Assembly (NCBI GenBank): GCA_026014565.1
Contig: JAOZIB010000043.1
Span: 69,854-129,309, forward strand
DNA length: 59,456 nucleotides
Reading direction: 5' to 3'
DNA from: Candidatus Bathyarchaeum sp.
GTDB taxonomy: Archaea > Thermoproteota > Bathyarchaeia > Bathyarchaeales > Bathyarchaeaceae
Part shown: piece after piece, positions 18,306 through 40,522 of the stretch
Position numbering within the stretch: position 1 is the first letter of the stretch
How the letters are laid out: every line of letters starts with the position of its first letter
Notes under the pieces: model-generated
The model's database searches: none
Told to the model about the DNA's origin: nothing
Seen by the model: only the letters and a program-made list of their open reading frames with translations
Made by a program: the position numbers and the translations under genes

Positions 18306-19547
18306 TCAGAATCCTAAGTCGTATGCTTCTTCGCCGTGTTGACTAAGGTCCAGACCTTGATTTTCTTCTTCTTCGCTGACTCTCAGGTGACAGAATATGT
18401 TGATTGTTTTCAACAACACAAAGGAGCCAATAAAGGAGAACACTGCAACAATAACAACAGATACAACCTGAGCAATCAGCAAATCAAGATTGCCGTAGAA
18501 TAATCCATCTACGCCATTGACCGTTGCAGTTGCAAACAGTCCAGTTGCTATTGAGCCCCAAACTCCACTTATCCCGTGGCATGCAAAAACATCCAATGAA
18601 TCATCGATTCTTGTCTTTGCCGCGCGCCAGTTGGAAACAAAGTTTGATAGAACTCCGGCAACTAAACCAATTATTATTGCGGATGTCATTGTTATGAATC
18701 CCGACGCAGGGGTTACTGCAACTAGTCCACAAACTGCACCAACAGAAATTCCTACTGCGGAGGGTTTTCCTTTGGTAAACCAATCGGTAAGCATCCAGCT
18801 TGTTGCGGCAGCTGCGGCAGCAAGGTTGGTTGCCACAAGGGCAGAAACAGACAATGCATTAGCTTCCAGTGCACTTCCAGCGTTGAATCCAAACCATCCA
18901 AACCAGAGTAATGACGCGCCCAGTATTACGTAGGGAATGTTGCATGCTTTGTGTTCCACATCGTTACAGCATTTTGAGTTAGCAAGAATTTTTCGTTTAC
19001 CAATAACTAATGCTGCAGCCAAGGCAGAAAATCCTGCAGTTATGTGGATTACAATTCCACCAGCAAAATCTACTGCGCCAAAAAGGTCAAGCCATCCATT
19101 GGCATTCCACACCCAGTGGGCCACTGGCGAATATATGAAAGTTGACCATAAAACAGTGAAGATAAGAAGTGATTTGAATTTTATTCGCTCAGCAAAAGCA
19201 CCTATGATCAGCGCAGGTGTTATTGCTGCAAACTTTAATTGAAAGGCAAAAAACAGCAGTTCTGGAACTTGGGTTGCATATGGACTAATTGTATTTACTC
19301 CAATACCATTCAATCCAACTAATGAAAAGTCACCAATAAAGCCTCCAATGCTGTTTCCAAATGTGAGGCTGTATCCCCAAAATGTCCAAACCAAACTTGA
19401 GACTGCAAAAATAATCAGGCATTGAACGAGTGTTGAAACAAGGTTTTTTTTCCGCACAAGACCAGCGTAAAAGAATCCCAAGGCAGGAGTCATCAACATG
19501 ACTAATGCGGTAGCAGTTGATATCCAGGCGATATCACCTACTGCCAT
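18306..19547 (-). CDS. amt: Ammonium transporter 1 (Amt/Mep/Rh family)
   Basis: 413 residues with eleven membrane helices; conducts ammonium into the cell. The start MAVGDIAWISTATALVMLMTP is typical, and the two pore histidines are visible in GIVIHITAGFSAL and VFACHGISGVWGS. I start it at ATG 19547, which has GGGGAT in front, rather than 90 nt further upstream. No glnK (PII) gene is adjacent, although archaeal amt genes are usually linked to one. Its promoter carries a pair of TGAAYA-N2-TRTTCA palindromes also found before the kaiC-like/amt2 genes, which indicates control by nitrogen status. Confidence 0.95.
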   Translation of the reverse strand: MAVGDIAWISTATALVMLMTPALGFFYAGLVRKKNLVSTLVQCLIIFAVSSLVWTFWGYSLTFGNSIGGFIGDFSLVGLNGIGVNTISPYATQVPELLFFAFQLKFAAITPALIIGAFAERIKFKSLLIFTVLWSTFIYSPVAHWVWNANGWLDLFGAVDFAGGIVIHITAGFSALAAALVIGKRKILANSKCCNDVEHKACNIPYVILGASLLWFGWFGFNAGSALEANALSVSALVATNLAAAAAATSWMLTDWFTKGKPSAVGISVGAVCGLVAVTPASGFITMTSAIIIGLVAGVLSNFVSNWRAAKTRIDDSLDVFACHGISGVWGSIATGLFATATVNGVDGLFYGNLDLLIAQVVSVVIVAVFSFIGSFVLLKTINIFCHLRVSEEEENQGLDLSQHGEEAYDLGF

Positions 19548-19645
19548 GAATTTATCCCCGTGAAGATTATGCACTTGTTTGTGTTGATTTGTCCAATGCT
19601 TTTGGTTTTCATGATTTTTTCCCCAATTTCTGTTCAATATTTCTC

Positions 19646-19659
19646 TGAATGATTATTCA
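19646..19659 (-). promoter_or_regulatory. Third, imperfect palindrome in the amt1 promoter
   Basis: TGAATGATTATTCA: the outer five bases of each half are complementary, the inner ones are not. It lies on the gene side of the TATA box, near the expected transcription start, 40 bp from the next palindrome, where a bound repressor would block initiation. Confidence 0.5.
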
Positions 19660-19663
19660 TTTA

Positions 19664-19729
19664 AATATAAATGTTTCTTATTACTTGAACATTTGTTCAG
19701 TAACTATTTCATTATTGAATATTTATTCA
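19664..19729 (-). promoter_or_regulatory. amt1 promoter: TATA box and two 14-bp palindromic operators
   Basis: On the minus strand the TATA box ATTTATATT lies at 19664-19672. Upstream of it are TGAACA-TT-TGTTCA (19686-19699) and TGAATA-TT-TATTCA (19716-19729), with perfect half-sites, starting 30 bp apart; the nearer site begins 14 nt from the TATA box. The same geometry recurs upstream of both kaiC-like genes. Confidence 0.75.
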
Positions 19730-20523: not shown

Positions 20524-21741
20524 CTATTCTTTTTGTGCAAGCCAGTTTTTGGATTTGTAAACTGTTTTTGGTCCTAATTTCACGCTTAATGCACCTTTTT
20601 CGGGGCACATTTCAACGCATCTCAAACAAAGGGTACATCCAGGTGTTGTTACGTCACCGCCTTTTTTGTTATATACTTCGGTAACTTGTGTGGGACAAAC
20701 TCGCTTACAGATTCCACATTTTGTGCATTTGGCTTCGTTTTTGTTCAAACGAGTTAAGGCAATTTTATTGAATGGCGCATGGGTGCTAAAAAGGTCAAGT
20801 AGCCCGCCCAAGGCACATATTCTGCACCAAAATCTCCGGTAAGTAAAAGAGAGAACTGTGATTAAAATAAACAATGAAACATTTATTGAAGTCAGATAAT
20901 GCCCTGCAATAAATAATGGACCGTATGTTATTTGGGAAATGTACTGGAAATTTAAGAAACCTAATGCGGACTGAGTCAAAATTGAAAGTGGTCGCATTGG
21001 GCAAATTAAACAATAGGGTTCATTAATAAAGCCCACTATTCCTGATTCAGTTCCAAAGGGTCCACCCGGAATTGTTCCAGGAATAAGCTCGGTGCCAAGA
21101 ATTTGATAAGACCCAAAGATGAAACTAAGAATCAACAAAGCTGCAATTAAAACAAACCGGAACTGACGCAAAATTTTGTTTGTTTTCTCAGAGAGACTCT
21201 TATGACCAATCTTGAAGGCGTTACGTATCTTAGTGATTAAATCCATGTATAATCCAAATGGACATAACCAGCCACAAAAAAATCTGCCCAAAAGGATTGA
21301 CGATCCGATGAGCATCCCAAAAACTATTGCTAGTTTTTCTAAACCTGAAGTAGAATAAAAAACGTCATAACCAATTTGCCCTGCATCCCAAAATGGGAAA
21401 ATGTATGCTTGAATTTCCCAAAGGGGACAAGTAACTGTTCGGCCATTAGGAATGTAACACGCTAAAACGGGCACTGGAAGGCCATCTGGAAGTTGGTTTC
21501 CCAGCAAATCTTTCCCAATTAATCGTTCTCGGGGAGAAACCCCCAGGGCTTGATAAAAGGGGTCATTAAAAGGACCTACTAGTAAACCCATAAAAATCGC
21601 TACAACTGCTGCAATCTGAATTATAAACCTAAGATTGCTAACCTTTTTTGTTTTAGTGAACTTAAGCACAAAAAATGCACATAAGGCAACAATTAGTGCA
21701 TACCATAATAAAATTAAATTTGTAGAATTTTCCCAGACCAT
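20524..21741 (-). CDS. NapH/NosR-type membrane polyferredoxin (4Fe-4S)
   Basis: 405 residues. About six membrane helices carry the family's conserved cysteine pairs in FCGWLCPFG, CLICPMRP and FWCRICALGG. The C-terminus holds two 4Fe-4S clusters: CTKCGICKRVCP and CTLCLRCVEMCP. Such proteins pass electrons across or along the membrane to periplasmic or cytoplasmic partners. The ATG at 21741 follows GGTGA by 8 nt and lies one nucleotide after the stop of the upstream gene, so the two are translationally coupled. The electron partner is not in the window; the upstream gene encodes an exported domain that may be it. Confidence 0.9.
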   Translation of the reverse strand: MVWENSTNLILLWYALIVALCAFFVLKFTKTKKVSNLRFIIQIAAVVAIFMGLLVGPFNDPFYQALGVSPRERLIGKDLLGNQLPDGLPVPVLACYIPNGRTVTCPLWEIQAYIFPFWDAGQIGYDVFYSTSGLEKLAIVFGMLIGSSILLGRFFCGWLCPFGLYMDLITKIRNAFKIGHKSLSEKTNKILRQFRFVLIAALLILSFIFGSYQILGTELIPGTIPGGPFGTESGIVGFINEPYCLICPMRPLSILTQSALGFLNFQYISQITYGPLFIAGHYLTSINVSLFILITVLSFTYRRFWCRICALGGLLDLFSTHAPFNKIALTRLNKNEAKCTKCGICKRVCPTQVTEVYNKKGGDVTTPGCTLCLRCVEMCPEKGALSVKLGPKTVYKSKNWLAQKE

Positions 21742-21742
21742 T

Positions 21743-22435
21743 CTAGGTTTCACCTGTTCCTTTTTTGCGCATAATTATTATTGCCAAACCCAAGATAACC
21801 ACTAGTAAGAAACTAGAAGCAAGCACAACATAATGATCCTCAAACAAGTTGGGTTCGTCCAAGTATGATTCAGGATGACCATAAAACGAAAGAGTAACGT
21901 TGCTAACTGGAGCAGTCACAGTTATGGTTCCATCATCAGAACGAGTCCAACCGTGATTCAATCCAATCCATTCTCCATCTAAAATTGCTTCAATTTGACC
22001 TTGCTGCAAATCAAACCCCAAATTCACAGTCTGGGTTCCTTGCCCCTCAACCACGTAGGGGAAAAATACGCTAGTCACGCCGTCCTCTTCTGAACTTCTA
22101 TTAAACTTAAAAAACTGGTAAATTGTAACGTTGCAGTCCTTTGCTGAAAGACTAAGGTTTAGTTTTTCTGAGCCGTAAGCATCAACAGAAAACTGTAATC
22201 CATCAAAAAACCAAGTATCGTGTTCCAAAAAAGCATTTTCACATGTTCCAGCAGTAGCAAACTGAATAGAACCATTATGTGAAGGGATTTCAAAAACATC
22301 AACCGCAGTAAACGAAACTTGAGATTGACACGTAACCGAAACAACAAATATCAAAACCGACTGACAAACCAGAAAAAATACAAATCCTTTTTTGAAAACA
22401 GAAAAAAAGGCATACACAGATTTTTGTTTACCCAT
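21743..22435 (-). CDS. Secreted/anchored protein coupled to the polyferredoxin
   Basis: 230 residues with an N-terminal signal helix (about 17-35), a beta-rich extracellular part containing several N-x-S/T sites and two cysteines (GTCENAF, AKDCNV), and a C-terminal membrane helix (about 202-222) followed by MRKKG. No known family. The stop codon is within one nucleotide of the polyferredoxin start, so the products probably work together, perhaps as an extracytoplasmic subunit of a redox complex. Confidence 0.7.
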   Translation of the reverse strand: MGKQKSVYAFFSVFKKGFVFFLVCQSVLIFVVSVTCQSQVSFTAVDVFEIPSHNGSIQFATAGTCENAFLEHDTWFFDGLQFSVDAYGSEKLNLSLSAKDCNVTIYQFFKFNRSSEEDGVTSVFFPYVVEGQGTQTVNLGFDLQQGQIEAILDGEWIGLNHGWTRSDDGTITVTAPVSNVTLSFYGHPESYLDEPNLFEDHYVVLASSFLLVVILGLAIIIMRKKGTGET

Positions 22436-22916: not shown

Positions 22917-22982
22917 TGAATGTTTATTCACTTACTACATCATTCATAAACAAATGTTCAGTAAAAAAGAAATACTTATATA
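22917..22982 (+). promoter_or_regulatory. kaiC-like 1 promoter: two palindromic operators and TATA box
   Basis: TGAATG-TT-TATTCA (22917-22930) and TAAACA-AA-TGTTCA (22947-22960) are spaced 30 bp apart. The TATA box ACTTATATA (22974-22982) begins 14 nt after the second site. The spacing is identical to the promoter of the second kaiC-like gene and, mirrored, to that of amt1. Confidence 0.75.
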
Positions 22983-23028: not shown

Positions 23029-23769
23029 ATGAGTCGAAAATCATCAAACATAGAATGGATCGACTTTGGCGTATCTGGATTAGAGGAGTTCATTCCAGGA
23101 TTACCAAAGGGCGATGCAATACTAGTGCGAGGTGACCCTGGCACAGGTAAAACTATAGTTTGCTTACAATTCCTGTATCAAGGCGCAAAAAGTGGCGAAA
23201 AATGCCTCTACATCACTACAGAAGAAACCCCGGAATCGATACTGCGAACTGGAGCCGAGCTTTGGCCAGATTTTCCCAAACTAGTTGAAAATGGAATGAT
23301 CAAATTTGTAAACATGTCCATCACCGGCGAATGTGCCAACGATTATGGCTTACTTGGAAAAGCAGAGGCAATGAAAATTGCAGAAACTGGCTTTGCTACC
23401 CAACCCGGAGCATCCAGAATTGTAATTGATTCTTTGTCTTCGTTGGATCAGCGCTTGTCTGACTATGAAGAATTCCGAGAAGTCTTCATGAAGCTGCTAC
23501 TGGAAACCAAACAAAAAGGCGCCACAGTAGTCTTAACTGCTGAAGGCATCCCCCTGACGCCCGACATCACTGAATACCTTGTAGATCACTTGGTGTATCT
23601 TGACTACCGAAAACAAGACACAGAATGGACCCGTGTTTTCATTCTCCGAAAATCACGAAGCGTACCCCTTAAACCCCAGATACTTAAGCTATACATTGAA
23701 AAAGGCGGCCTCTCAGTCGAAGAAACTCCGTTCGCCCTGAACCCCGTGTGGTTCCAAAGCAAAATCTAA
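23029..23769 (+). CDS. KaiC-like single-domain ATPase 1
   Basis: 246 residues of the RecA/KaiC superfamily. Walker A GDPGTGKT (residues 35-42), the paired glutamates in ITTEETPE, and Walker B RIVIDSLSSL are intact, so it should bind and hydrolyse ATP. Archaeal single-domain KaiC proteins act as signalling switches or chemotaxis/archaellum regulators; none is known to my knowledge to control ammonium uptake. I use ATG 23029, since GTGATC just before it pairs with the 16S tail; GTG 23020 is the alternative. It is a close paralogue of the ATPase encoded at 24402 and has the same promoter. A terminator follows, so it is transcribed alone. Confidence 0.85.
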   Translation: MSRKSSNIEWIDFGVSGLEEFIPGLPKGDAILVRGDPGTGKTIVCLQFLYQGAKSGEKCLYITTEETPESILRTGAELWPDFPKLVENGMIKFVNMSITGECANDYGLLGKAEAMKIAETGFATQPGASRIVIDSLSSLDQRLSDYEEFREVFMKLLLETKQKGATVVLTAEGIPLTPDITEYLVDHLVYLDYRKQDTEWTRVFILRKSRSVPLKPQILKLYIEKGGLSVEETPFALNPVWFQSKI

Positions 23770-23783
23770 ATCACTCCCAATAG

Positions 23784-23807
23784 GAACCTTACTTAACAGT
23801 GAGGTTC
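23784..23807 (+). terminator. Terminator after kaiC-like 1
   Basis: GAACCTTACT and AGTGAGGTTC form a 10-bp stem (one G-U pair) with a 4-nt loop, followed within 10 nt by ATTTTCTTTTTTTT. Confidence 0.7.
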
Positions 23808-23814
23808 ACTATTT

Positions 23815-24289
23815 TCTTTTTTTTAAAAAAAAAAGCAAAATCATTTTTGAACAAAACTGTTTTGTCAGGATTAACTAAGAGCCATCCAGACACCCAGAAA
23901 AAACAAACAATAGGTTAACCACCAAAAATAGTAATACTTTTATTTAATTTCGTAATACTATCATTTGGGTTAAGATTTGGAACTGGACTACATCTAACGT
24001 GACTCGTCGCATCTAGTTTCAGTTTGTTACGTTTATTTGGACCAGCTCCACAATCCTTGACCTCACTAATTGATGCAATAATTGCTTGCCGCACCCCTAT
24101 GAAAAAACGTAAAAAATCTCCAGCCACATTTTCCATAATTTTTCATCAGCACAAAAATGTATATTTTGTTTATTGATCCGGTTTTTGTTTAACACGATTT
24201 TTATTGATTTAATTCATTATAAAAAAAAGTCAATCATACATTAAAATAGAAAGCTATTTATCAACAAAATATTATATTTAATACGTTAT
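23815..24289. other. Gene-free stretch between the two kaiC-like genes
   Basis: About 475 bp. A 73-codon minus-strand frame at 23915-24136 has no ribosome site, promoter or recognisable motif, and I do not accept it. The rest is AT-rich. The sequence downstream of 24290 repeats the promoter of the first kaiC-like gene, so the region is the seam of a gene duplication. Confidence 0.5.
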
Positions 24290-24355
24290 TGAACAATTGT
24301 TCATTGTTTAACTTAACACTAAATAAATATTCAATAAAAAAGAAATACTTATATA
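24290..24355 (+). promoter_or_regulatory. kaiC-like 2/amt2 promoter: two palindromic operators and TATA box
   Basis: TGAACAATTGTTCA (24290-24303) is a perfect 14-bp palindrome. TAAATA-AA-TATTCA lies 30 bp further (24320-24333), and the TATA box ACTTATATA (24347-24355) begins 14 nt after it. The segment from the TATA box to the start codon closely matches the first kaiC-like promoter. Confidence 0.8.
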
Positions 24356-24401
24356 CAAATAGTCAATAACTAGCATTTTAATTGAATAAGAAGTGATCAG
24401 C

Positions 24402-25142
24402 ATGACAATGCAACAAACCTCAAATATAGAATGGGTTGACATCGGAATGGATGGACTGGACAAATTTATTCCAGGAATTCCAAAAGGCGATGCAATACTA
24501 GTGCGAGGCGAACCAGGTACTGGTAAAACCATTAGTTGTTTGCAATTCCTTTACAAAGGCGCCAAAAGCGGCGAAAAATGCCTGTACATCACAACCGAAG
24601 AAACCCCAGAAACAGTAATGCGAACCGGAGGAGAACTCTGGTCAGACTTTCCAAAACTAATCCAAAACGGAACAATAAAAGTCGTTAACCTTTCCATTAC
24701 TGCAAGCTATGCTAGCGAATACTGTCTGGTCGACAAAACAGAAGCAATGGACATAGTTCAAAAAGGGTTGAAAGCACAACCAGGAGCCGTAAGGATCGTA
24801 ATCGACTCGCTATCATCTCTTGCTAGGCGTTTGTCTGATTCACAAGAATTCCGACAAGTCTTCATGAAGATACTAATGGAAACCAAAGCCCAAGGAGCAA
24901 CCACACTATTTAGCGCAGAAGGTATTCCTGCAGCTCCAGGCATTACTGAATATCTTGTAGACCATTTGATTTACCTTGACTACCGAAAACACGACGTAGT
25001 CTGGACTCGCGTTTTCCTACTCAAAAAGGCACGAAGTGTCCCCATGAAACCTCAAGTATTAAAACTGAACATTGCAGCAGGTGGACTGTCCGTAGAAGAA
25101 ATACCCTTCTCACTGAAGCCTGTTTGGTTTGGAAAAGAATAA
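24402..25142 (+). CDS. KaiC-like single-domain ATPase 2, co-transcribed with amt2
   Basis: 246 residues, closely similar to the ATPase at 23029 over its whole length. Walker A GEPGTGKT, ITTEETPE and Walker B RIVIDSLSSL are all present. ATG 24402 follows GTGATC; GTG 24393 is an alternative. The stop is 11 nt before the amt2 start, and a single promoter with paired palindromes serves both genes. This places an ATP-binding KaiC-type protein where archaea normally have glnK, suggesting it may sense energy or ATP/ADP state to control the transporter. That role is inference. Confidence 0.87.
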   Translation: MTMQQTSNIEWVDIGMDGLDKFIPGIPKGDAILVRGEPGTGKTISCLQFLYKGAKSGEKCLYITTEETPETVMRTGGELWSDFPKLIQNGTIKVVNLSITASYASEYCLVDKTEAMDIVQKGLKAQPGAVRIVIDSLSSLARRLSDSQEFRQVFMKILMETKAQGATTLFSAEGIPAAPGITEYLVDHLIYLDYRKHDVVWTRVFLLKKARSVPMKPQVLKLNIAAGGLSVEEIPFSLKPVWFGKE

Positions 25143-25153
25143 ACTGGTGATAA

Positions 25154-26476
25154 ATGATGAGTTTAGATCAAGCAACTGAAGCATGGGCGGCGTTCCAGCA
25201 GAACTTCTTCGTAGGATGGGCACCTGTCGCCATTTTCATCATGGCAACTGCAGGATTTGCCTTGTTCTATGCAGGAATGGTTCGCAAAAAGAACGTCACT
25301 CACACTATACTACAAATCAACGTAGGATGGACACTGGCATTCGTCGTGTACTTCCTTATCGGATTCCCCCTAGCATATTACGTGGCTGAGCCTGTGTTTG
25401 GAATTCCACAGTTTGCACCAACAATTGCTAACCCATTGCCACCATTACTATCTGAAACTGGTGCATACGGTTTAGCCGCAAGCCCCTCCGGACTTGGAGA
25501 TCTTGCAACATGGTTCAAAATGGCGATGTTCGCTATCACAGTAATCGGTATAGTTCCCGGAGGCTTAGCAGAACGTGACAAATTCTGGGGCTGGATAATT
25601 GCAGCTGCTGGAATATCTGGTTTCATCTACCCCATAGTTGAACACTGGGTCTGGGGCGGAGGCTGGTTAGCAGAAATTGGGTTCATCGATTACGCCGGTT
25701 CAGGTGTAGTTCACCTCGTCGGAGGAACACTCGCACTGATGGGCGCATATGTAATCGGTCCAAGGATTGGAAAATTCGTAGGTGACAACAAGATACCGCG
25801 AACGTTCTTTGGGCACAGTATCCCATTGTCGGTTCTCGGTGCATGGCTACTGGCTTTCGGTTGGTTCGGCTTCAACGTCGGCTCAAGCGTAGCAGCAGAT
25901 CCAATGACCATCAACGTAGAACTCGCATGGGTCTCACTGACCACAGCAATGTGCATGGCCGGCGGAATGTTCGGTGCAGCAATCACCTCAAGGGGCCACG
26001 TGCTAACCAGCATGGTTGGGTTACTTGCAGGAGCTGTAGCAATCTGTTCCGGAGCAGCAATAGTTCACCCCCTTGCAGCATTCGTAATCGGCATAATCGC
26101 GGGAGTAATCACAACCTTCACAATGGGATTACTGGACCACAAGTTACACATTGACGACGCCTTGGGATGCTTCCCAGTTCACGCAGCATGTGGAGTCTGG
26201 GGACTGTTGGCAACTGGAATCTTTGGCGGAACCGCACTTGGGGCACATCCAATCTACGGATTTGCTGACATGACAACATGGATTAACCAAATCGGAATAC
26301 AAGCAATCGGTGCCGGTGCAATATTCCTATGGTCCGCAGTAACGGGACTGATAATGTTTGGCATCCTCAAGAAAGCAAACCTACTCCGTGTCGGACGAGA
26401 CGCAGAACTATACGGTCTGGACATCGCACTGCACAAAACCCTAGCATACCCCGAAGACATGATGGAAGAAAAATAA
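25154..26476 (+). CDS. amt: Ammonium transporter 2 (Amt/Mep/Rh family)
   Basis: 440 residues, eleven membrane helices. Pore histidines appear in GSGVVHLVGGTLAL and FPVHAACGVWGL, and the early FALFYAGMVRKKNV is a family hallmark. It is clearly distinct from amt1 in sequence and longer at the C-terminus. GGTGAT lies just before ATG 25154; the second ATG codon is also possible. Second gene of the kaiC-like 2-amt2 operon, which ends at a hairpin with a T-run. Codon use is noticeably more GC-rich and even than in the surrounding genes, consistent with high expression. Confidence 0.95.
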   Translation: MMSLDQATEAWAAFQQNFFVGWAPVAIFIMATAGFALFYAGMVRKKNVTHTILQINVGWTLAFVVYFLIGFPLAYYVAEPVFGIPQFAPTIANPLPPLLSETGAYGLAASPSGLGDLATWFKMAMFAITVIGIVPGGLAERDKFWGWIIAAAGISGFIYPIVEHWVWGGGWLAEIGFIDYAGSGVVHLVGGTLALMGAYVIGPRIGKFVGDNKIPRTFFGHSIPLSVLGAWLLAFGWFGFNVGSSVAADPMTINVELAWVSLTTAMCMAGGMFGAAITSRGHVLTSMVGLLAGAVAICSGAAIVHPLAAFVIGIIAGVITTFTMGLLDHKLHIDDALGCFPVHAACGVWGLLATGIFGGTALGAHPIYGFADMTTWINQIGIQAIGAGAIFLWSAVTGLIMFGILKKANLLRVGRDAELYGLDIALHKTLAYPEDMMEEK

Positions 26477-38423: not shown

Positions 38424-39884
38424 CTAGTAGTCTAGATATTTCATTATTTCCCATGGAGTTACATACAAACAGAACTGGTTCCAGTCGTTTGTCTTGTAGT
38501 CGATGAATGCATCGAATATGTGACTTCCAAGAGCCTTCTGAACTACTTCATCACTTTGCATTGCTTCCAATGCGTCTTTCAAGGATGTAGGTAGTTCTTT
38601 GATTCCCATGGCTTTTCGGCGTTCAGTGGGTAGTTCGTAAACGTCTTCGTCTACAGGGTCACCAGGTTCAGTTTTATTCTTAATACCGTCAAGTCCAGCC
38701 ATCAAGATAACTGACAAAGCCAAGTAAGAGTTACATGAGGGATCAGCTGATCGCAATTCTGCACGTTTTGCTGCTGCATGCTCAGGACCTTTGAAGTATA
38801 CTGGAACACGAATCATTGCGGACCTGTTTCGGCGAGACCACATGATAAAGATCGGGGCTTCAAATCCGGGAACAAGTCGTTTGTATGAGTTTACTGTAGG
38901 ACAAGTTATTGCAGTGATTGCTCGAGCGTGGTCAAGCAAACCTCCAATGAAGTATCTGCCAGTTTGGCTCATTTCTGCATATTCATCTGTTTCGTCATAC
39001 ATTGCGTTTGTTTTTCCTTTCCACAAGGAAGCGTGAACATGCATTCCGCTTGCGTTGTCAAGGTAAACTGGTTTAGGCATGAAAGTTGCAACTAAACCGT
39101 GTTTTTTCGCCACGTTTTTTGCAACAAACTTGTATAGTAGGGTTCGGTCAGCGGTTTTAACCAAGTCACCATATTTGAAGTCAATTTCAATTTGTCCATT
39201 GGTTGCGACTTCGTGGTGGTGCATTTCGATTTCTGTGTCAAAGTTTGTTTCTAGTATGTGAGCGACTTCGTTACGGTATTCAACGGTAGTGTCATCTGGG
39301 GGAGGTCTGAAATAGGCTTCTTTAGGCCTTAAGAATTGGCTTCCTGGGGTGGTTTCTGGAGATTGAGGTACTACTCGTGGTGCTCCCCAAGAGTCACCTG
39401 AACCACCTTTTGGACTTACCCACATGTCCCAGACAAGTTTTGTTGGATCAATTGAGTTGAAAACGAAATATTCCAGTTCTGGACCAAAAAAGCCAGTGTA
39501 TCCCATAGCTGCTGCAGCTTTCACGGCATTTTTTGCTACGTATCCTCGGGGGTCTACAACTGAGGGTTCGTTGCCTCCGAAGGCTTCATAGACATCGCCT
39601 AGGATTATTGCACTTCTTTGTATGTCGTTATCCATGGTCCATGGAATAAGGGAAAGGGTATCTGCTGCAGGCATGAGAATCATGTCTGATTCGTTTATGG
39701 CTTTGAATCCTCGCACTGATGAACCGTCGAAGCCGATGCCAGCGGTTAGAGCTTGTCCTTCAGTGAAATGGCGTGCAGGTAGGACTACGTCTTGCATTAG
39801 ACCTCGGATATCAACAAAAGCGGTGTGCACCCATCGGATTTTATTTTTTTTCAGGGTTTCTTGTGCTTTGGTAATTGCATCCAT
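38424..39884 (-). CDS. glnA: Glutamine synthetase (type I)
   Basis: 486 residues; makes glutamine from glutamate, ammonia and ATP. The family's DGSSVRGF substrate loop, FFGPELEYFVF metal site, ASGMHVHASLW and RRNRSAMIRVP are all present. I use ATG 39884 because GGTGAATAAT stands directly before it. It leads an operon with two stand-alone RAM proteins. Its promoter region holds a TGAACA-N2-TGTTCA palindrome shared with the amt and kaiC-like genes, and the divergent gene encodes an Lrp regulator. Confidence 0.96.
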   Translation of the reverse strand: MDAITKAQETLKKNKIRWVHTAFVDIRGLMQDVVLPARHFTEGQALTAGIGFDGSSVRGFKAINESDMILMPAADTLSLIPWTMDNDIQRSAIILGDVYEAFGGNEPSVVDPRGYVAKNAVKAAAAMGYTGFFGPELEYFVFNSIDPTKLVWDMWVSPKGGSGDSWGAPRVVPQSPETTPGSQFLRPKEAYFRPPPDDTTVEYRNEVAHILETNFDTEIEMHHHEVATNGQIEIDFKYGDLVKTADRTLLYKFVAKNVAKKHGLVATFMPKPVYLDNASGMHVHASLWKGKTNAMYDETDEYAEMSQTGRYFIGGLLDHARAITAITCPTVNSYKRLVPGFEAPIFIMWSRRNRSAMIRVPVYFKGPEHAAAKRAELRSADPSCNSYLALSVILMAGLDGIKNKTEPGDPVDEDVYELPTERRKAMGIKELPTSLKDALEAMQSDEVVQKALGSHIFDAFIDYKTNDWNQFCLYVTPWEIMKYLDY

Positions 39885-39930
39885 ATTATTCACCATTCAT
39901 TCAATTGAAATTGAAATTATTACATGTTTG

Positions 39931-39997
39931 TATATAAACTTTTCTAGAGATTTGAAGGAAAGCTTATATACATCCACATCCAATGAACAAGTGTTCA
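39931..39997. promoter_or_regulatory. glnA/lrp divergent promoters with palindromic operator
   Basis: TGAACA-AG-TGTTCA (39984-39997) has perfect half-sites. For glnA (minus) the TATA box TTTATATA lies at 39931-39938, 45 bp from the palindrome, equal to the distal site position in the amt1 promoter. For the Lrp gene (plus) the TATA box CTTATATA lies at 39963-39970, so the palindrome covers the expected transcription start and would repress it when occupied. Confidence 0.7.
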
Positions 39998-40000
39998 TGA

Positions 40001-40522
40001 ATGCAAAAAATGAAATTTTGTTTCATAAACAATCATTCAATTGAGGAGGAACATAAACTGGTTTACGATTCTCATCACAAAGTGGATGAAATTGACAGAA
40101 AGATAATACGTTTACTACAAGAAGATGCAAGAAAAAGCTTCAACAAAATAGCAGATAGTCTTGGAATAGCTGTTGGAACAGCATACAATCGCGTGAAGAA
40201 CCTCGAAGACAGCGGAATTCTGAAAGGATACACCATACTATTAGATTCTGCCAGACTTGGCTATGGACTAACTTCGCTTATTCTGATTCAGGCTGATGGC
40301 AGTTATCTTGCCGATGTTGAAAAACAACTTGCCTCACTAGATGAAGTCATCTGCATCTATGATATTACTGGAGATTATGACATGGCCGTTGTTGCCAGAT
40401 TCAAAGACCGCGGCGCATTAAACAACTTCATTAAATCTGCACTGAAGATGCCACATGTTAGCAAAACTGTAACAAATGTTGTTCTTAACGTGGTAAAAGA
40501 AGACTTCAGAGTTAAAGTCTAA
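40001..40522 (+). CDS. Lrp/AsnC regulator divergent from glnA
   Basis: 173 residues: winged helix (VDEIDRKIIRLLQEDARKS, recognition helix TAYNRVKNLEDSGIL) and a RAM domain with DITGDYDMAVVARF. ATG 40001 lies just past the expected start of transcription, so the mRNA may be leaderless; the first ~25 residues precede the usual Lrp start, and GTG 40082 is possible. The operator palindrome overlaps its promoter. Position and operator make it the first candidate for the regulator of the amt/kaiC/glnA set. Confidence 0.85.
   Translation: MQKMKFCFINNHSIEEEHKLVYDSHHKVDEIDRKIIRLLQEDARKSFNKIADSLGIAVGTAYNRVKNLEDSGILKGYTILLDSARLGYGLTSLILIQADGSYLADVEKQLASLDEVICIYDITGDYDMAVVARFKDRGALNNFIKSALKMPHVSKTVTNVVLNVVKEDFRVKV

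Follow-up and report, generated by a model that had tools for sequence, protein, structure and literature searches.

Two KaiC genes and two amt genes

We examined a gene for a KaiC-type ATPase and an adjoining gene for an ammonium transporter (Amt) in a 59,456-nucleotide stretch of the Candidatus (Ca.) Bathyarchaeum sp. assembly GCA_026014565.1 (contig JAOZIB010000043.1, positions 69,854 to 129,309 of the forward strand), the whole of which is referred to here as the window. Two KaiC-type ATPases are encoded, by kaiC1 (23029..23769, + strand) and kaiC2 (24402..25142, +); each is a single-domain protein of 246 amino acids, and the two are 70% identical. kaiC1 has its own promoter, with the same operators as kaiC2, whereas kaiC2 is the first gene of an operon and ends 11 nt before the start of amt2 (25154..26476, +), whose product of 440 amino acids belongs to a clade of KaiC-linked ammonium transporters. 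An earlier reading, made without database searches (the sequence-only reading), had described this arrangement and proposed that a KaiC-family energy sensor controls ammonium uptake where GlnK would be expected. The kaiC-amt2 pairing is conserved and non-accidental, and a KaiC-type ATPase probably regulates ammonium uptake in Bathyarchaeia, instead of or beside GlnK.

Coordinates, PF06745 matches and alignment bear out the gene arrangement as first described. KaiC1 and KaiC2 match PF06745 with E values of 2.1e-43 and 7.1e-42 and with 148.8 and 143.8 bits (gathering score, 26.6), which places both in the family, and their motifs are intact: Walker A (G(D/E)PGTGKT), Walker B (RIVIDS), and the paired glutamates in TTEET. 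Amt2 matches PF00909 at 6.8e-95. The genome, which is 95.7% complete, has exactly two Amt genes, both inside the window; the other, amt1 (18306..19637, −), encodes a conventional Amt (PF00909, 3.6e-124), has no adjacent KaiC or GlnK partner and falls in the same putative regulon. Between amt1 and kaiC1 lie genes for a NapH-like polyferredoxin (20524-21753, −) and an unknown protein (21743-22435, −), which also stand beside kaiC1 in Bathyarchaeum tardum.

Distribution of the kaiC-amt2 pair and of GlnK

The pair was surveyed in 257 genomes of Bathyarchaeia, with membership of the KaiC clade set at E <= 1e-40. Amt is present in 71 genomes, a PII match in 11, and the KaiC clade in 13, which come from three families of one order. 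In 12 of these 13, the KaiC gene lies immediately upstream of an amt2-type gene, counting one genome (G159) in which both genes are frameshifted. The thirteenth (G048) shows only a kaiC1-type gene, and its linkage cannot be judged because the contig ends 368 nt later. Every complete kaiC2-type gene is followed directly by amt2, within about 95 nt, and all 13 amt2 open reading frames (ORFs) scored have a KaiC gene within 5 kb. The control set comprised 71 other Amt ORFs (most other Amt genes of the class), each with ∼8.8 kb of flank; here, a KaiC gene lay within 5 kb only for amt1 of the window and amt1 of one further genome (G143), and both of these KaiC genes are of the same clade. Elsewhere, amt1 is without a kaiC partner. 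The base rate of PF06745 genes is 3 to 13 per genome. In a phylum sample of 398 genomes, amt2-type transporters (E <= 1e-90) were found only in Bathyarchaeia carrying kaiC. The linkage first noticed in the window thus recurs in relatives, in three families of the order and on one bacterial contig; its extent outside Bathyarchaeia is a lower bound, as the contig scan with kaiC2 relied on exact 8-residue patterns and gave only relatives of at least 75% identity.

The 14 KaiC sequences form one clade; compared with ten further members of the KaiC family taken from the class, they show 20 to 27% identity. All 14 keep Walker A (G(E/D)PGTGKT), a Walker B of the RIV(I/M/L/V)DS type and TEET, and all share a conserved C-terminal tail, L(K/N)PVWF. 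According to the tree, the ancestor of the genus to which the window belongs duplicated the gene into kaiC1 and kaiC2 (support, 0.99), and the Chloroflexi KaiC is the sister of the kaiC1-kaiC2 pair (support, 0.92). Some loci of Ca. Bathyarchaeum or Bathyarchaeota carry a kaiC2 that is 91 to 96% identical to that of the window. The window's ATPases score far under every NCBIfam subfamily cutoff and are not circadian clock KaiC: with one domain and 246 amino acids, they reach 55 to 63 bits against TIGR02655, for which the cutoff is 546. A fold search with the KaiC2 model matched PDB entry 2zts and FlaH, which confirms the KaiC family and nothing further.

Neighbors other than kaiC and amt2 differ between the window's genus and the other families. 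Genes for an Lrp-type regulator (lrp), a ribbon-helix-helix (RHH) protein (rhh) and NAD synthase recur near the pair within two families (f4 and f5). The bacterial contig, 23 kb long and filed as Chloroflexi, has the order glnA-kaiC-amt2. Its neighboring genes are bacterial in type (a PucR-type regulator and a glnA unlike the archaeal copies), and it is G+C-rich, with third-codon-position G+C fractions of 0.675 in kaiC, 0.78 in amt2 and 0.74 to 0.80 in the host genes. Given these neighbors and a base composition largely that of the contig, the pair seems to have been transferred between domains long ago and not to be a contaminant. Neither lrp nor rhh stands beside it there, and kaiC plus amt2 would therefore be the minimal transferable unit.

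Both amt genes of the window lack an adjacent glnK, as the sequence-only reading stated, and the absence extends to the genome, in which PII (PF00543) gave 0 matches (a control profile matched in 13 of 14 genomes). Likewise, PII is missing from three near-complete genomes of Ca. Bathyarchaeum (two are single contigs), in which amt2 is the sole Amt; in the single-contig genome of B. tardum, amt2 is the only Amt and PII is without a match. The premise that GlnK would be expected fared worse. PII occurs in only 11 of the 257 genomes and is missing from about 61 of the 71 with Amt, so that its absence is the norm. Because PII is rare in the class with or without KaiC, the absence of GlnK is not special and does not by itself point to KaiC. 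Natural Amt-GlnK fusions also occur, as single frames of 575 and about 600 amino acids with an Amt and a PII domain (locus L080, 5645-7369, in G104; locus L091, 977-2716, in G079).

Operators shared with nitrogen genes

Upstream of kaiC1 are a distal palindromic operator, TGAATGTTTATTCA (22917..22930), conserved in front of kaiC1 in G046, G048 and G049; a proximal operator 30 bp downstream of it (22947..22960), which has one mismatch and adjoins the region of the transcription factor B recognition element (BRE) and TATA box; and a TATA-like box, CTTATATA (22975..22982, +), in which TTATATA is conserved across six aligned promoters. The kaiC2-amt2 operon has a distal palindromic operator, TGAACAATTGTTCA (24290..24303), found by pattern search, a proximal operator 30 bp downstream, again with one mismatch (24320..24333), and the TATA-like box CTTATATA (24348..24355, +), recognized from the sequence and the promoter alignment. 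Three palindromes precede amt1 (19646..19729; at 19646, 19686 and 19716). At amt1, kaiC1 and kaiC2 alike, two sites are spaced by exactly 30 bp; before the kaiC genes, the second of them is imperfect. The two kaiC promoters had been called identical, which is true of the core, AAAAAAGAAATACTTATATACAAA, and of the 30-bp spacing of the operator pairs; the surrounding ∼75 nt are strongly similar only.

The palindrome TGAAYRNNYRTTCA has 14 sites in the 1.81-Mb genome; the reversed pattern, used as control, has 3. Of the 14, six fall in the window: three before amt1, one before kaiC1, one before kaiC2-amt2, and one (39984..39997) common to the divergent genes glnA (glutamine synthetase; 38424..39896, −; TIGR00653, 2.5e-172) and lrp (Lrp/AsnC-type regulator; 40001..40522, +). 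This last site is conserved in G046 and G049, and the regulator is homologous to the Lrp encoded ahead of kaiC-amt2 in other families. With a stricter operator pattern, the window gave 10 strand matches versus 0.21 expected. TGAAYRNNYRTTCA also precedes a glutamate-synthase-like protein (L133, 3093) and a ferredoxin/oxidoreductase/glutamine-amidotransferase operon (L132, 3133), two glutamate-synthase loci named by sequence reading and weak NCBIfam matches. In B. tardum, the operator sites of kaiC1, kaiC2, glnA/lrp and glutamate synthase are conserved. Further intergenic sites lie at a small helix-turn-helix (HTH) gene and at a DsrE/ferredoxin pair; in three genomes, the palindrome separates a DsrE-like gene from a ferredoxin gene that diverges from it (L130, 3101; L143, 1933; L149, 1990). 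Pattern matches in coding sequence (L129, 7887; L131; L134; L135) were discounted as probably fortuitous.

Because TGAAYRNNYRTTCA is common to both kaiC genes and to nitrogen genes, kaiC1 and kaiC2 are, on operator evidence, probable members of the nitrogen regulon. The predicted site reads TGAAN6TTCA and has the same architecture as GGAAN6TTCC, the NrpR operator found upstream of glnK-amtB and glnA in Methanococcus (PMC2723118); kaiC-amt2 would therefore fill the corresponding slot of the regulon. Two NrpR homologues are encoded in the genome (PF01995, 2.5e-73 and 6.6e-71, with the N-terminal HTH region recognized by reading), one of which adjoins a glutamate dehydrogenase-like gene. An NrpR homologue would most likely be the binder of TGAAYRNNYRTTCA, Lrp being the alternative.

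Proposed control of Amt2 and comparison with known systems

With 318.5 bits against PF00909, Amt2 is a member of the Amt family and keeps the W167/S244 selectivity filter, the F126/F240 Phe gate and the H187/H343 His pair. Amt2-type proteins are monophyletic (support, 1.0) and share a C-terminal end peculiar to their clade, HKTxAYPE (LDIALHKTLAYPEDMM in the window), where Amt proteins elsewhere in the class usually have HGEEAY or similar. In the PDB, Amt2 is matched best by Ks-Amt5, an Amt-kinase sensor, of whose features it has 0 of 7 extra ammonium-site residues and 1 of 3 pore-blocking residues; a Ks-Amt5-like sensor role was dropped on these counts. Since the pore residues are intact and the Ks-Amt5 site is gone, Amt2 is taken to be a transporter, and from its sequence it looks like one that needs control. 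Long Amt proteins of about 520 to 540 amino acids form a second group, with an N-terminal extension and with Lrp and sometimes RHH genes ahead of them (L045, 5403-7022; L047, 4088-5671; L069, 5402-6967).

Most simply, KaiC2 would act on Amt2, because amt2 is the constant partner, whereas the presence of lrp, rhh, glnA and glnK varies. Under nitrogen limitation, the repressor (most likely one NrpR homologue) would leave TGAAYRNNYRTTCA, and amt1, kaiC1, kaiC2-amt2, glnA/lrp and glutamate synthase would be released together. KaiC2, a RecA-fold ATPase, would form a hexameric ring, as its family suggests, and dock at the cytoplasmic face of the Amt2 trimer, which the symmetry of a KaiC hexamer would fit; its ATP/ADP state would then decide whether Amt2 conducts. 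KaiC1, a lineage-specific duplicate with its own promoter, would probably serve as co-subunit or tuner. On this reading, KaiC2 would be an energy sensor that physically controls the channel. That it acts as a nitrogen-induced, ATP-driven ring, setting conduction as GlnK does elsewhere, we hold at a confidence just short of even. The fuller proposal, in which a KaiC ring would be the direct gatekeeper of the ammonium channel, independent of PII and driven by energy state, having arisen in Bathyarchaeia and passed to bacteria as a module of two genes, is put forward tentatively, and we lean toward doubting it.

Several observations weigh against control of Amt2 by KaiC2. Many Bathyarchaeia have an Amt with neither PII nor KaiC adjacent, so that regulation of Amt by a neighbor is not obligatory. 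kaiC1 has no amt of its own. The AlphaFold single-chain model of KaiC2, built from 7 sequences, is of low confidence, with a predicted local distance difference test score (pLDDT) of 64.7 and a C terminus under 50; owing to the poor C terminus, no surface argument was drawn from it. Finally, KaiC and GlnK coexist in G143, where a single cluster reads lrp-rhh-kaiC-amt2-glnK-amt1. The idea of KaiC in place of GlnK was accordingly too strong, and strict replacement was dropped; what supports the sequence-only reading is the linkage, the absence of glnK and the operators common with nitrogen genes, whereas the GlnK expectation and the strict substitution do not stand. Of the two findings that this reading had named as refuting it, a glnK under the same operator elsewhere in the genome and a lack of the kaiC-amt linkage in all relatives, neither was observed. 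In the T-loop of the G143 GlnK (L038, 8074-8412), whose gene lies next to kaiC-amt2, Ser takes the position held by Arg in three other PII proteins of the class. The T-loop Arg of E. coli GlnK plugs the channel; if Arg does so here too, this Ser would be unusual.

A different flow of information, from transporter to ATPase, would make KaiC2 an ammonium sensor-transducer and not a gate: transport by Amt2, or its occupancy, would inform KaiC2, acting as a hub on transcription regulators, for example the Lrp and RHH proteins whose genes precede it. The order lrp-rhh-kaiC-amt2 in families f4 and f5 is in keeping with this, as is the distribution of the RHH protein, which has an unknown C-terminal domain of ∼130 amino acids (examples: L039, 3649-4188; L038, 10836-11375; L063 in G197, 2215-2604; L047, 3443-3997). 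It occurs in 31 of the 257 genomes, all 31 with Amt (base rate, 71/257). Its gene lies ahead of kaiC-amt2 at six loci, while in G197 it stands before amt-glnK and in G139 before a long Amt; the protein is a candidate ammonium regulator. A role as hubs of archaeal signal transduction has moreover been suggested for KaiC-like ATPases (Makarova 2017, cited in PMC5847659), and the Ks-Amt5 match could be read the same way. Against this, the window's genus, which has no RHH gene at all, and the Chloroflexi contig both keep kaiC-amt2 without an RHH gene beside it, and the ammonium site of Ks-Amt5 is missing from Amt2, as are two of the three pore-blocking residues. The absence from the window's genus also led us to drop the RHH protein as an obligatory partner. 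We consider a sensor-transducer role unlikely, though it merits some weight.

Alternatively, KaiC1 and KaiC2 could be ATPases of the nitrogen-stress response that act on something else (glutamine synthetase, glutamate synthase or a regulator), co-transcribed with amt2 only because nitrogen limitation calls for both. kaiC1 has operators and no amt partner, and B. tardum retains it though without amt1; in L006, glnA immediately precedes kaiC, and in L042 it diverges from the run lrp-rhh-kaiC-amt2. The linkage to glnA is variable, however, whereas that to amt2 is invariant: kaiC2-type genes are never without amt2 where the contig permits judgment, nor amt2-type genes without kaiC in the genomes searched, and a separate target is in our judgment improbable. 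Chance, or plain synteny by descent without functional relation, is very improbable: although the pair is mostly inherited vertically in one order, so that the 12 cases are not independent, the pair is kept as the flanks change from family to family, it occurs on a bacterial contig, and nitrogen operators precede both kaiC genes.

GlnK is the textbook brake on Amt. Unrestrained ammonium uptake by Amt wastes energy through futile cycling (Boogerd 2011, cited in PMC10433425). If control of Amt2 by KaiC2 is real, a dedicated KaiC-type partner would be a second solution to this problem in a class where most Amt-bearing members have no GlnK. Such a partner would also give one of the many uncharacterized archaeal KaiC-like ATPases a concrete, testable target. 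We found no description of the pairing in the literature searched, which did not cover the 2017 survey of archaeal KaiC neighborhoods and leaves priority uncertain; the description of B. tardum mentions amt and not KaiC.

Among known KaiC proteins, cyanobacterial clock KaiC has a homologous ATPase domain, but in two tandem copies where the window's proteins have one. The archaeal single-domain KaiC-like proteins (PH0186, structure 2zts; ArlH/FlaH, 4yds; TIGR03880/03881) share one RecA-type domain, Walker motifs and paired Glu with those of the window, which nonetheless form a separate, Amt-linked clade. ArlH is a precedent for a single-domain KaiC-like ATPase working with a membrane machine. 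As for Amt control, GlnK-AmtB likewise involves a small ATP/ADP-binding partner, encoded with amt in one operon and expressed together with glnA as part of the nitrogen regulon; NrpR operators stand on the glnK-amtB operon and on glnA in M. maripaludis (PMC2723118). Here, by contrast, the partner is a RecA/KaiC-fold ATPase and not a PII trimer, is encoded upstream of amt and has no T-loop, in a genome without PII. In Methanosarcina mazei, a non-PII protein influences an archaeal Amt, AmtB, but it is described there as a small protein, not an ATPase (PMC10714827). The ammonium sensor kinase Ks-Amt5 (6eu6) couples an Amt domain to an ATP-using signaling protein, whereas here the two are separate polypeptides, with KaiC instead of a histidine kinase. 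KaiC-like ATPases as archaeal signaling hubs and Amt partners were both known already; as far as the literature searched goes, their joining in a conserved two-gene nitrogen module is new.

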